From: Bradyrhizobiaceae bacterium
Lineage (GTDB): Bacteria; Pseudomonadota; Alphaproteobacteria; Rhizobiales; Xanthobacteraceae
Length of the DNA: 64,000 nt
Direction: 5' to 3'
Assembly (NCBI GenBank): GCA_947481685.1
Contig: CANKHA010000007.1
Coordinates: 1-64,000, forward strand
The notes below the pieces were generated by a model, which did no database searches, was not told the origin of the DNA, and saw nothing but the letters and a program-made list of their open reading frames with translations. A program made the translations under genes and the position numbers. This document shows, one piece after another, positions 3,802-7,590 of the stretch. Numbering within the stretch: the stretch's first letter is position 1; each line of letters opens with the position of its first letter.

Positions 3802-4488
3802 ATGAAGATTTTGGTGGTCGACGATCACGTTCTGATCCGTCAAGCCATGCATGGGATGCTAAAGAAGCTGCGGCGGGACGTCGTGGTCCTTGAGGCGCCG
3901 ACCTCCGAACGGGCAATGCAACTCGTCGCCGACCACCAGGACATCAGCCTGATCCTGCTGGATCTAACCCTTCCGGACCGGGACGGATTTTCCGTACTGA
4001 CCGAGTTGCGCCAAACCCATCCTTCAATCGCGGTGGTGGTGGTATCGGCTGTCCATGACCCCGGCTATGTCATGAAGGCGCTCGACCTCGGCGCGCTTGG
4101 ATACATCCCGAAGTCCGCTCAGGGAGATGTGATTCTCAGCGCGCTCCGGTTGGTCATTTCCGGTGGAATTTATGTCCCGCCGGAAATCCTGAATCGCCAT
4201 GCTTCGCCGCAGGCTCCGGACATGGAATCGTCCACCGGAATTCCCAACCACCCCTCCGACTATCTTGGGCTCACCGAACGCCAGCTGGATGTGCTTGGCC
4301 TGATGATGCAGGGCAAGAGCAATAAAACGATTTGCCGTATTCTCCAGCTCGCCGAGCCGACGGTTAAAAACCACGTCACTGCTATTCTAAAGACATTGAA
4401 CGTCACGAACCGCACAGAAGCGGTGGTGGCTGCGAACAATCTCGGCTGGAGGCCGCGCGTACCCGTCGCACGCGCGCAAGGGCAATAA
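3802..4488 (+). CDS. NarL/FixJ-family response regulator
   Basis: The 228 residues form a receiver domain (1-120) and a LuxR-type helix-turn-helix (about 152-212). Receiver residues are visible: acidic pair D7-D8, phospho-acceptor D54 in ILLDLTLPD, S82, and K104. The DNA-binding part reads LTERQLDVLGLMMQGKSNK followed by TVKNHVTAILKTL. It should bind DNA after phosphorylation. The gene converges with the hybrid kinase next door (two bases apart), and such kinase/regulator pairs are common in this bacterial group, so the kinase is the likely but unproven partner. GGAAAGGG precedes the start. The 204-base gap before it (3598-3801) shows no other gene. Confidence 0.9.
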   Translation: MKILVVDDHVLIRQAMHGMLKKLRRDVVVLEAPTSERAMQLVADHQDISLILLDLTLPDRDGFSVLTELRQTHPSIAVVVVSAVHDPGYVMKALDLGALGYIPKSAQGDVILSALRLVISGGIYVPPEILNRHASPQAPDMESSTGIPNHPSDYLGLTERQLDVLGLMMQGKSNKTICRILQLAEPTVKNHVTAILKTLNVTNRTEAVVAANNLGWRPRVPVARAQGQ

Positions 4489-4490
4489 CG

Positions 4491-7199
4491 TCACATGGCT
4501 GAAGCGGCGCGCTTGCTCACGATTTGAGTGAGTGTAGCCCTTAGCGTCATCGGCTCCACCGGCTTGTGCAGCAAGGTGAAACCCTTCGATCGCGCCGCAC
4601 GCAACGGCTCCGCATCCATATCACCGCTCATCAGAAACGCCGCGATCGGCGCATCCAGCGCGATCCGCAATTGTCCTATAACATCGATACCGTTTTTGCC
4701 GTCCTGCAGGTGGAAGTCAGAGATGATCAAGTCAGGAAGCCGGGCATAATCGGACAGCGCGTTGAGCACGGCGGTTTCATTTTCACCGGCGACCACATCG
4801 CATCCCCAGCTTCTGATGAGCCCGCTCATGCCTTCCAGAACCAGGCGATCGTTGTCGACCACGACAATCAATTTCCTGTCGGTGAATCCGAGCTGGCGTC
4901 TTGGTACGGCGGCGACCTCAATTTTCTCCGGAGCAGCATCGACTTCGGCAACCGAAATAGCAAAGCAAGAGCCTTTCCTGACTTCGGACTTCACAGAAAT
5001 CGAATGCTTCATCAACTTGGAGAGCCGGTCCACGATCGCAAGCCCCAGACCGAAACCGACTGCGCCGCCCTCAGACGACTTGAGCCTGTAAAATTCACCA
5101 AAGATGTTCTGGTGCTGGTCGGCGGGAATGCCCGCGCCCGTGTCCCATACCTCAATCCGCACATGCTTTCCGGCTTTGCGGCAACCCACAAGGATTCGCC
5201 CCGTGGAGGTGTAACGAATGGCATTGGAGACGAGATTGAAGACAATCCTCTCGAGGAGAATCCGATCGCTGCGTATCCAGGCGCTGCTTCCGACAACATG
5301 CAGGGAGAGGCCCTTTTCCCTTGCCGCCTCGCCGAAGGTCGGCTCGACCCGCCGCAACAATTGCGCAACGGGGAAATTAACGAGCTTCGGAGCAAGCGCC
5401 CCGGCGTCCAGCTTGGTCACGTCGAGCAGCGCGTTGAACAGCTCATTCATGACGGATAGCGAAGCCTGAATGCGCTCGACGATTTTTTTGCGCTCTTCGG
5501 CGCGGGTGCGCGACTGAAGCTGCGCCACGAACAGGCCTAGCGCATGCAGCGGTTGGCGCAGGTCATGACTCGCTGTTGCCAGGAATCGCGATTTGGCTTG
5601 TGTCGCGAGTTCGAGCTGCTTGGTGCGCTCATCCACCTTGCGTTCCAGATTCGAATAGGAGTCCTGCAGTTGCCCGGCCATCCGGTTGAACTGCCTGCCA
5701 AGCTCTTCAAGCTCGTCGCCGGTATCGATGGCGATACGCTGGCTCAAGTCGCCGCTGCCGAGCCTGACAGCGCCTCCCGTCAATGTCCGTATGGGGACGA
5801 CCATTTTCCGGGCGAAAAAGAGTCCGCCCAATACCGCCAAAATCAAACCCGCAAGCAGCAAGAGCCCCGACCTCAACAACCGGTCATACAGAGGCTCAAA
5901 GGCCTCTTCGATCGGCAGCTCGGCAAAGACAAACCAGCCAAGTCCTTCAACGGGAGCATAAGCCGTCAAAACCTGCCGGCCGGACAGATCCGTTGAAAGG
6001 CCGGAATACTCACTTGGCTTTCCGGACAAAACTTCCGCGCGGGCTGCCTGTACATGTGCCAGACTCGAGAGATCCATCTTCCGCAGCACGAGGCTGATGT
6101 CGGGGTGCGCAATGAGCCGGCCAGCGGAATCGACGACGTAGGTCTTGCCCTCTTTGCCAACCTTGATCTGCCACACCACGTCCCAGATGAATTTGAGATT
6201 CACTTCTGCGGTAACCACGCCGTAGTCCGGACGGGCGCCGGCCAAAGCGATCGTCATGTAGGGCTCTGATTCACGAAGAAAGTAGACCGGTCCGTAATAC
6301 GACTTGCGCGCGAGCGCCTGGATAACCGCCGGATTTTCCGAGAAATCGGCCATGCTTCCGATCACGTCCATGGACTGGCGTGATGACCGGTATCGCTCCC
6401 GGCCCTCGGCATCGAACTGCGCAATTTCAGTGACGGGAGGCGCCTGGCGGAACAGGCGGGCGGCATCGAAGCGCCATTCGTCGGCGGTTTTGGTGCGCAC
6501 GGGCAGTTGCGTGGCCCAGGACAGCTGTCCCTCGACCTCTTTTACGAACTGGCTGATTTTACTGGCTGCGGACTTGGCTTGTTCCCCCTGAACCCGCAGG
6601 AGCAATCTGGCGTCATCCAAATACGACCGCGCTTGCTCGCGGGTAATGTCCAAGGGTTGCGATGCTATCTTCATGTGAGCCGTTAGATCAACGTACACAG
6701 AACTCAGCCGAACCTTCTCACGCTTCTTCACGCCCTCTTGTATCAGCTGCTCAATATCACCCTTTTCTGGTTTCATTCGCCCTAGAATTATTTGTGCCAT
6801 CCCTTCAGGATTCTTCCACCCGCACGAACGCGCAAAATGTTCGATCACAACTGATAGTTCGTCCGAAGAAGCTTCCCATACGCCGACACTCTGAGCTGAA
6901 TGCATAAGATATAGGATCGAGAGCGCACCCGACACGAACCACGGCGCGCCGAGAACCCGATGCTTAGGCGCATGCTTGAACCGCTGCTCGAACACCTCAA
7001 CTGGCAGGTGACCTTTGCTATAGACCATCAAAAACTTCGCGCATTCCTCGCCCGCAATGATCGCGAAATGCGCGGCGAGCGGAAATTTCCTGCGGCGATA
7101 AAGCAGCTGTGCAGCCCCCAAGAGGTCGCGGACGTTTTGATCCAGGGCCTCCAAAACATCGGCGGCGCTGGATGATGCTGAATGTGTGTCCGATATCAT
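4491..7199 (-). CDS. AbiV-type HEPN domain fused to a hybrid histidine kinase
   Basis: This 902-residue protein joins two unrelated parts. Residues 1-205 match AbiV-type HEPN proteins (abortive infection): FPLAAHFAIIAGEECAKFL at 39-57, FKHAPKH at 74-80, and VYVDLTAHMKIASQPLDIT at 168-186. From about 207 the protein follows a common rhizobial hybrid kinase: Cache-like sensor (210-435), one clear membrane helix (443-463), HAMP (464-515), coiled coil, HisKA with H545 in SHDLRQP, HATPase_c (N655, N659, DTGAGIP at 686-692, GFGLGLAI), and a receiver with D828 and K879. Such kinases normally start with a membrane helix before the sensor; here AbiV takes its place, and only a weaker hydrophobic stretch (86-105) could substitute. 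The AbiV half has GC near 48-57%, the kinase half about 62%. No stop or frameshift separates them. A recent gene fusion by horizontal transfer is the simplest reading. Confidence 0.8.
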   Translation of the reverse strand: MISDTHSASSSAADVLEALDQNVRDLLGAAQLLYRRRKFPLAAHFAIIAGEECAKFLMVYSKGHLPVEVFEQRFKHAPKHRVLGAPWFVSGALSILYLMHSAQSVGVWEASSDELSVVIEHFARSCGWKNPEGMAQIILGRMKPEKGDIEQLIQEGVKKREKVRLSSVYVDLTAHMKIASQPLDITREQARSYLDDARLLLRVQGEQAKSAASKISQFVKEVEGQLSWATQLPVRTKTADEWRFDAARLFRQAPPVTEIAQFDAEGRERYRSSRQSMDVIGSMADFSENPAVIQALARKSYYGPVYFLRESEPYMTIALAGARPDYGVVTAEVNLKFIWDVVWQIKVGKEGKTYVVDSAGRLIAHPDISLVLRKMDLSSLAHVQAARAEVLSGKPSEYSGLSTDLSGRQVLTAYAPVEGLGWFVFAELPIEEAFEPLYDRLLRSGLLLLAGLILAVLGGLFFARKMVVPIRTLTGGAVRLGSGDLSQRIAIDTGDELEELGRQFNRMAGQLQDSYSNLERKVDERTKQLELATQAKSRFLATASHDLRQPLHALGLFVAQLQSRTRAEERKKIVERIQASLSVMNELFNALLDVTKLDAGALAPKLVNFPVAQLLRRVEPTFGEAAREKGLSLHVVGSSAWIRSDRILLERIVFNLVSNAIRYTSTGRILVGCRKAGKHVRIEVWDTGAGIPADQHQNIFGEFYRLKSSEGGAVGFGLGLAIVDRLSKLMKHSISVKSEVRKGSCFAISVAEVDAAPEKIEVAAVPRRQLGFTDRKLIVVVDNDRLVLEGMSGLIRSWGCDVVAGENETAVLNALSDYARLPDLIISDFHLQDGKNGIDVIGQLRIALDAPIAAFLMSGDMDAEPLRAARSKGFTLLHKPVEPMTLRATLTQIVSKRAASAM

Positions 7200-7590
7200 G
7201 GATTATGGTTCATCGTGAGCGAACTTCTTGAGCGCACTGCGGATCGCTAACATTGGTGCGCGAGGCTTACCCGGACTTACTTGCTCGAAAGAATGGATTG
7301 CGGATTTTATTGTCGATTCTTGCATCGCCCGGGGATGGCTTGCGAAGCATCCGCAGGAATGAGGTGCGTTCTGTTTGCTCCGCAATGAGAGGGAAGTCGA
7401 GCAAAAGCGATTAATGCTAGGGTCACCCAGCGCGTAGGGTGGATTAGCGAAGCGTAATCCACCGACCGAAAAATCAGAGCGGCGGGTTACGCCTTCAGCT
7501 AACCCGCCCTACGGGCTAGGGCCCGGCGGGTGGCACCTACCTCGGCTAAGGCTTGGCGGGGAGAGATTTTTCGCTATAACGGCGACGTGT
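7200..7590. other. Intergenic region between the AbiV-kinase gene and tRNA-Thr
   Basis: This 391-base stretch holds no convincing gene. A 60-codon reading frame (7203-7385, minus) ends four bases before the AbiV-kinase start codon, which itself has no obvious ribosome binding site. A palindromic repeat occupies 7433-7513. The promoters of the kinase gene (minus) and tRNA-Thr (plus) must lie here but none is clear. Confidence 0.5.
7433..7513. repeat. Palindromic intergenic repeat (CGTAGGGTGGATTAGC type)
   Basis: The element opens with CGTAGGGTGG and closes with CCCGCCCTACG, so its ends are inverted. It contains two inner hairpins, one around GGATTAGCGAAGCGTAATCC and one around GGGTTACGCC...GCTAACCC. 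Elements of this kind are widely dispersed in Bradyrhizobiaceae-type genomes. Only one copy is seen in the window. Confidence 0.7.

Follow-up and report, generated by a model that had tools for sequence, protein, structure and literature searches.

We describe a gene that fuses an AbiV-type HEPN domain, in frame, with a dCache hybrid histidine kinase, and we regard it as probably the product of a recent, lineage-specific deletion-type fusion between an AbiV-type HEPN gene and a dCache hybrid kinase gene, one that left the HEPN and kinase cores intact and cost the protein its membrane arrangement for outside sensing. On this favoured account, the gene is a well-defined snapshot of a sensor kinase losing its outside sensor arrangement and gaining a cytosolic N-terminus in one step. 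If functional, the fusion would connect an abortive-infection domain with two-component signalling, a connection for which no description was found in the literature searched. Coordinates (Table 1) refer to the window, i.e. the entire 64,000-nucleotide stretch of DNA analysed.

Table 1. Position of the fusion gene, its parts and the adjacent regulator gene in the window
Feature	Window coordinates	Strand	Evidence
Whole fusion gene, HEPN_AbiV - dCache_1 - TM2 - HAMP - HisKA - HATPase_c - REC, 902 aa	4491..7199	-	frame and Pfam
AbiV-type HEPN domain, residues 14-199	6603..7160	-	Pfam PF18728 and stand-alone relatives L092 and L065
Junction; AbiV similarity to residue 199, kinase similarity from residues 192-200, best point 6602/6603	6600..6626	-	alignments
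dCache_1 sensor domain, residues 206-426, lacking the TM helix that precedes Cache in relatives	5922..6584	-	Pfam, E 5.8e-21
Residues 445-463, the only strong candidate for a transmembrane helix (hydropathy 2.55), corresponding to TM2 in relatives	5811..5867	-	hydropathy
HAMP domain, residues 461-513	5661..5819	-	Pfam
HisKA domain with H545, residues 535-600	5400..5597	-	Pfam and residue check
HATPase_c domain, residues 645-750	4950..5267	-	Pfam and residue check
C-terminal receiver (REC) domain with D828, residues 778-890	4530..4868	-	Pfam, E 7.4e-9
LuxR/NarL-type response regulator, convergent with the fusion gene	3802..4488	+	Pfam and relative L058

The AbiV-type N-terminus and its relatives

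An earlier note on this DNA had reported one continuous 902-residue frame at 4491-7199, and this is borne out: the gene runs on the minus strand (a detail absent from that note) from an ATG at 7199 to a stop codon at 4493-4491, through 902 codons without interruption. The Cache, HAMP, HisKA, HATPase_c and REC domains that it placed after the AbiV part were all recovered by Pfam, each domain call on the protein exceeding its curated cut-off, and the key residues H545, N655 and D828 lie exactly where they were said to be. With HisKA, HATPase_c and REC domains, the phospho-acceptors H545 and D828, and N655 together with N659 (a residue of the same N box and likewise a candidate metal ligand), the protein has the make-up of a hybrid sensor histidine kinase.

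The N-terminal part, judged from its sequence, is a genuine AbiV-type HEPN domain. The earlier note had given it as residues 1-205 and proposed a Pfam check, in which HEPN_AbiV (PF18728) matches residues 14-200 with an E-value of 1.8e-12 and a score of 48.1 bits (curated cut-off 27.1). Among the relatives found for it, the closest two stand alone: an AbiV protein from a genome of the same family (L092; 35% identity over residues 15-199, E 5.5e-38) and one from another genome of the order (L065; 30% identity, E 2.2e-34). Residues E51, E52, K55, R73, H76, R164 and Y169-V-D171 are invariant across four aligned sequences (the HEPN part of the fusion and three relatives). According to Anantharaman et al. 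2013 (PMC3710099), AbiV is a HEPN family that has retained the R of the Rx4-6H motif but not its H, and another conserved H precedes the motif. H76 and R164 fit this description, the assignment of their roles being our reading of the alignment. AbiV of Lactococcus is a homodimer that binds the phage protein SaV directly and appears to inhibit translation (PMC3231927); it and the stand-alone proteins L092 and L065 share with the fusion the HEPN core (residues 14-199), including E51, E52, K55, H76, R164 and the YVD motif. Unlike the fusion, AbiV proteins known or found have no kinase joined to them, the Cache-kinase part standing in place of the C-terminal tail of the closest relatives. No solved structure matched the HEPN part by sequence, and structure predictions made without an alignment (pLDDT 36.5 and 45.7, the latter model being all-helical) are too poor to judge the HEPN fold.

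Defence-like neighbourhoods surround the genes of the two closest AbiV relatives but not that of the third. The gene of L065 overlaps an AbiTii gene by 4 bases, the two possibly forming an AbiV-AbiTii operon (L077:8235-9886), and a conflict-system nucleotidyltransferase (PF20697) is encoded a few kilobases away. The gene of L092 is overlapped by 4 bases by a small gene with sub-threshold HTH matches, the two possibly forming a regulator-AbiV pair (L093:7744-8759); the L092 gene adjoins the gene of a SIR2-like protein of 1265 aa, with a phage-type integrase about 6 kb off. The neighbours of the third relative (L060), judged from sequence only, look metabolic.

PF18728 was searched for in four overlapping genome samples: 385 genomes from the class, 398 from the phylum, 397 from the order and 392 from the family. 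The earlier note would have counted the same fusion in more than one genome as support, yet no second AbiV-kinase fusion appeared in these samples, in plasmid and phage records, in IMG/VR or in GTDB contig scans, the second of which returned only a stand-alone AbiV; as these were samples and pattern scans, rare relatives of the fusion could be missed. Nor did the searches return the unfused ancestral arrangement of an AbiV gene and a kinase gene. The longest other AbiV-bearing frame above the cut-off in the four genome samples has 545 residues, and inspection of other long frames (326-545 aa) showed that those with additional sequence have different N- or C-terminal regions and no kinase. Within the open-access literature, we found no description of a fusion of AbiV, or of HEPN, with a histidine kinase, in keeping with the earlier note, which knew of none. 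The AbiV-kinase fusion has thus been seen in one genome only among those searched, and it looks like neither an established family nor an established new defence system.

Other AbiV architectures came to light in these searches. Three proteins of 404-545 aa (L067, L086 and L088) have an AbiV-type HEPN domain followed by a long shared C-terminal region, with 24-50% mutual identity over most of their length; L086 has no Pfam match besides AbiV, and the arrangement is a recurrent and apparently undescribed AbiV architecture. Two further proteins (L066 and L084; 38% identity over 307 residues) share an N-terminal region of about 130 residues ahead of the AbiV-type HEPN domain.

The kinase part and its regulator

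From residue 200 onward, the protein reads as an ordinary kinase. Two relatives in the same family (L058 and L059) are 51-52% identical to it from Cache to REC, and these and other NahK/ErcS-like dCache hybrid kinases share with the fusion the order Cache, TM2, HAMP, HisKA, HATPase_c and REC. In NCBIfam, the kinase comes closest to NahK/ErcS-type hybrid kinases, with 373 bits for NF041832 against a cut-off of 400, which puts it near this family and, by the curated rule, outside it. The relatives differ from the fusion in having a cytosolic stub and TM1 ahead of Cache, where the fusion has the AbiV-type HEPN domain. A scan of IMG/VR for kinase relatives found none.

The convergent LuxR/NarL-type regulator, separated from the fusion gene by 2 bases, is the likely partner of the kinase; its best NCBIfam match is ErdR, at 121 bits far under the cut-off of 390. 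A convergent regulator is likewise shared by the kinase relatives: clearly so for L058 (genome G017), where kinase and regulator are convergent as at the fusion gene, and probably for L059 (genome G040), where an adjacent frame resembles the antisense of a LuxR-type regulator. The genome with the fusion also encodes a paralogous hybrid kinase with a convergent LuxR-type regulator (G000:C3:139321-141329; L002 and L073), each 38% identical to its counterpart in the window.

The junction and the pieces lost

The earlier note placed the junction at about 6580; alignment to the genome of a test query in which an intact kinase N-terminus was placed after a complete AbiV moves it to 6602/6603 (residues 199/200). 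The query aligned as two abutting pieces, window 6603-7160 and 6501-6602, leaving AbiV residues 194-245 and the kinase stub with TM1 unaligned, and both partners are therefore truncated at the join. On the AbiV side, the two closest stand-alone relatives extend about 50-65 residues past the C-terminal end of the AbiV part of the fusion. On the kinase side, 11 relatives have TM1 at the same place, directly ahead of the Cache helix and of the type LFxKYVALFVAVV, and in L010 the contig starts within the TM1 helix.

Cache domains take up the stretch from one TM helix to the next, with a long first helix that directly continues TM1 (PMC4822843). The topology of the fusion protein was judged solely from hydropathy, by which TM1 is absent and residues 445-463 are the only TM helix left to flank Cache; segment 82-100 of the HEPN part, at 1.42, is borderline. 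The last HEPN helix appears to occupy the former TM1 position. The join disrupts the pair of membrane helices that usually frames a Cache sensor, and both truncations had been overlooked by the earlier note.

Origin and possible function of the fusion

Third-position GC content (GC3) is 0.70 in the kinase part but only 0.59 in the HEPN part, falling to 0.51 over residues 101-198; this difference suggests that the HEPN part is of foreign origin. In a three-way comparison of sites unique to each protein, the window protein has 27 in Cache (29 and 30 in two relatives), 39 from HAMP to HATPase (34 and 33), 19 in REC (11 and 6; p 0.03, uncorrected) and 26 in the HEPN part (16 and 24; not significant). 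The lack of drift in Cache points to a recent fusion, to continued constraint or to an assembly error, rather than to a long-established, unconstrained Cache domain, and because the HEPN and kinase residues are intact and Cache has no extra divergence, the fusion is probably recent.

An erroneous joining of two unrelated genes by the assembly is unlikely. The source genome is a draft of 107 contigs and 3.26 Mb and the only one of its genus in the collection, the join sits just where both partners are truncated, and the absence of drift in Cache is also what such a chimera would give; against this, the region around the junction occurs once in the assembly, the junction itself has no repeat, and the assembly yielded no leftover AbiV tail or TM1 piece elsewhere (a weak test for short pieces).

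The account we favour, a recent deletion-type fusion, would run as follows. An AbiV-type HEPN gene, probably laterally acquired, would have landed upstream of a dCache hybrid kinase gene paired with its convergent LuxR-type regulator, and a deletion-type event would then have cut away the last part of the AbiV gene together with the first part of the kinase gene, TM1 included, leaving the remainder in frame. In the product, the last helix of an intact HEPN core would continue into the long first Cache helix. Lactococcal AbiV forms a homodimer and histidine kinases work as dimers, so the HEPN part could give the kinase a new N-terminus through which to dimerise; such a HEPN dimer could lock the kinase in one state, and ligand binding to it could in principle, if one speculates, shift that state. 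With TM1 lost, Cache no longer has a membrane helix on each side, and most likely the kinase core has been disconnected from its former periplasmic ligand and is either constitutive or inactive toward its regulator, the HEPN part then being a passenger or a crude cytosolic input. Against this account stand the clean 902-codon frame and the key residues kept in both halves, which may also reflect a useful fusion, and the absence of the unfused ancestral arrangement from what the searches returned.

The earlier note had suggested that joining an AbiV effector to a kinase may link phage sensing to two-component signalling. The AbiV domain is indeed genuine and its two closest relatives lie in defence-like neighbourhoods, but no second genome with the fusion turned up in the samples and scans, and no finding connects the protein with phage sensing. 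It is quite improbable that the AbiV-type HEPN domain is the cytosolic input of a two-component phosphorelay in which the histidine kinase reports phage infection to a transcriptional regulator. The broader reading of an adaptive fusion, in which HEPN senses a cytosolic phage protein or RNA and acts through the shared helix on HAMP and HisKA, infection being signalled to the convergent regulator, is unlikely: the retention of conserved HEPN and kinase residues, the neighbourhoods just mentioned and the direct binding of SaV by AbiV (PMC3231927) agree with it, whereas its presence in a single genome among those searched, the truncation of both partners with the loss of TM1 and the want of any link to phage sensing speak against it.

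Very improbable is an effector gated by the Cache-kinase part, which would control a HEPN RNase or translation inhibitor in a manner loosely like that of IRE1 or RNase L. In those two proteins, the HEPN (KEN) domain has a different position, on the C-terminal side of a kinase domain of the Ser/Thr type; the literature searched showed no RNase activity for AbiV, and gating by Cache would be broken by the loss of TM1. This reading gains from H76 and R164, which fit an alternative active site proposed for AbiV, and from the proposal, in the same work, of membrane-linked, stimulus-gated HEPN RNases (PMC3710099). Such membrane-associated or sensor-linked HEPN proteins, and IRE1 and RNase L, resemble the fusion in having HEPN joined to sensory or membrane modules; unlike in the fusion, the partners are TM helices, CBS, HD or Ser/Thr-type kinases, and the words histidine kinase are absent from the text of that work (PMC3710099).

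Integration of an island at the nearby tRNA-Thr gene was considered and set aside. Relative to the tRNA, the fusion gene is on the 5' side; there is no conspicuous flanking repeat, and the neighbouring genes were scanned without finding an integrase, and tRNA integration is therefore not claimed. Between the fusion gene and tRNA-Thr (window 7430-7500) there is an imperfect palindrome, GGTGGATTAGCGAAGCGTAATCCACC, which we take to resemble interspersed repeats of this bacterial group.
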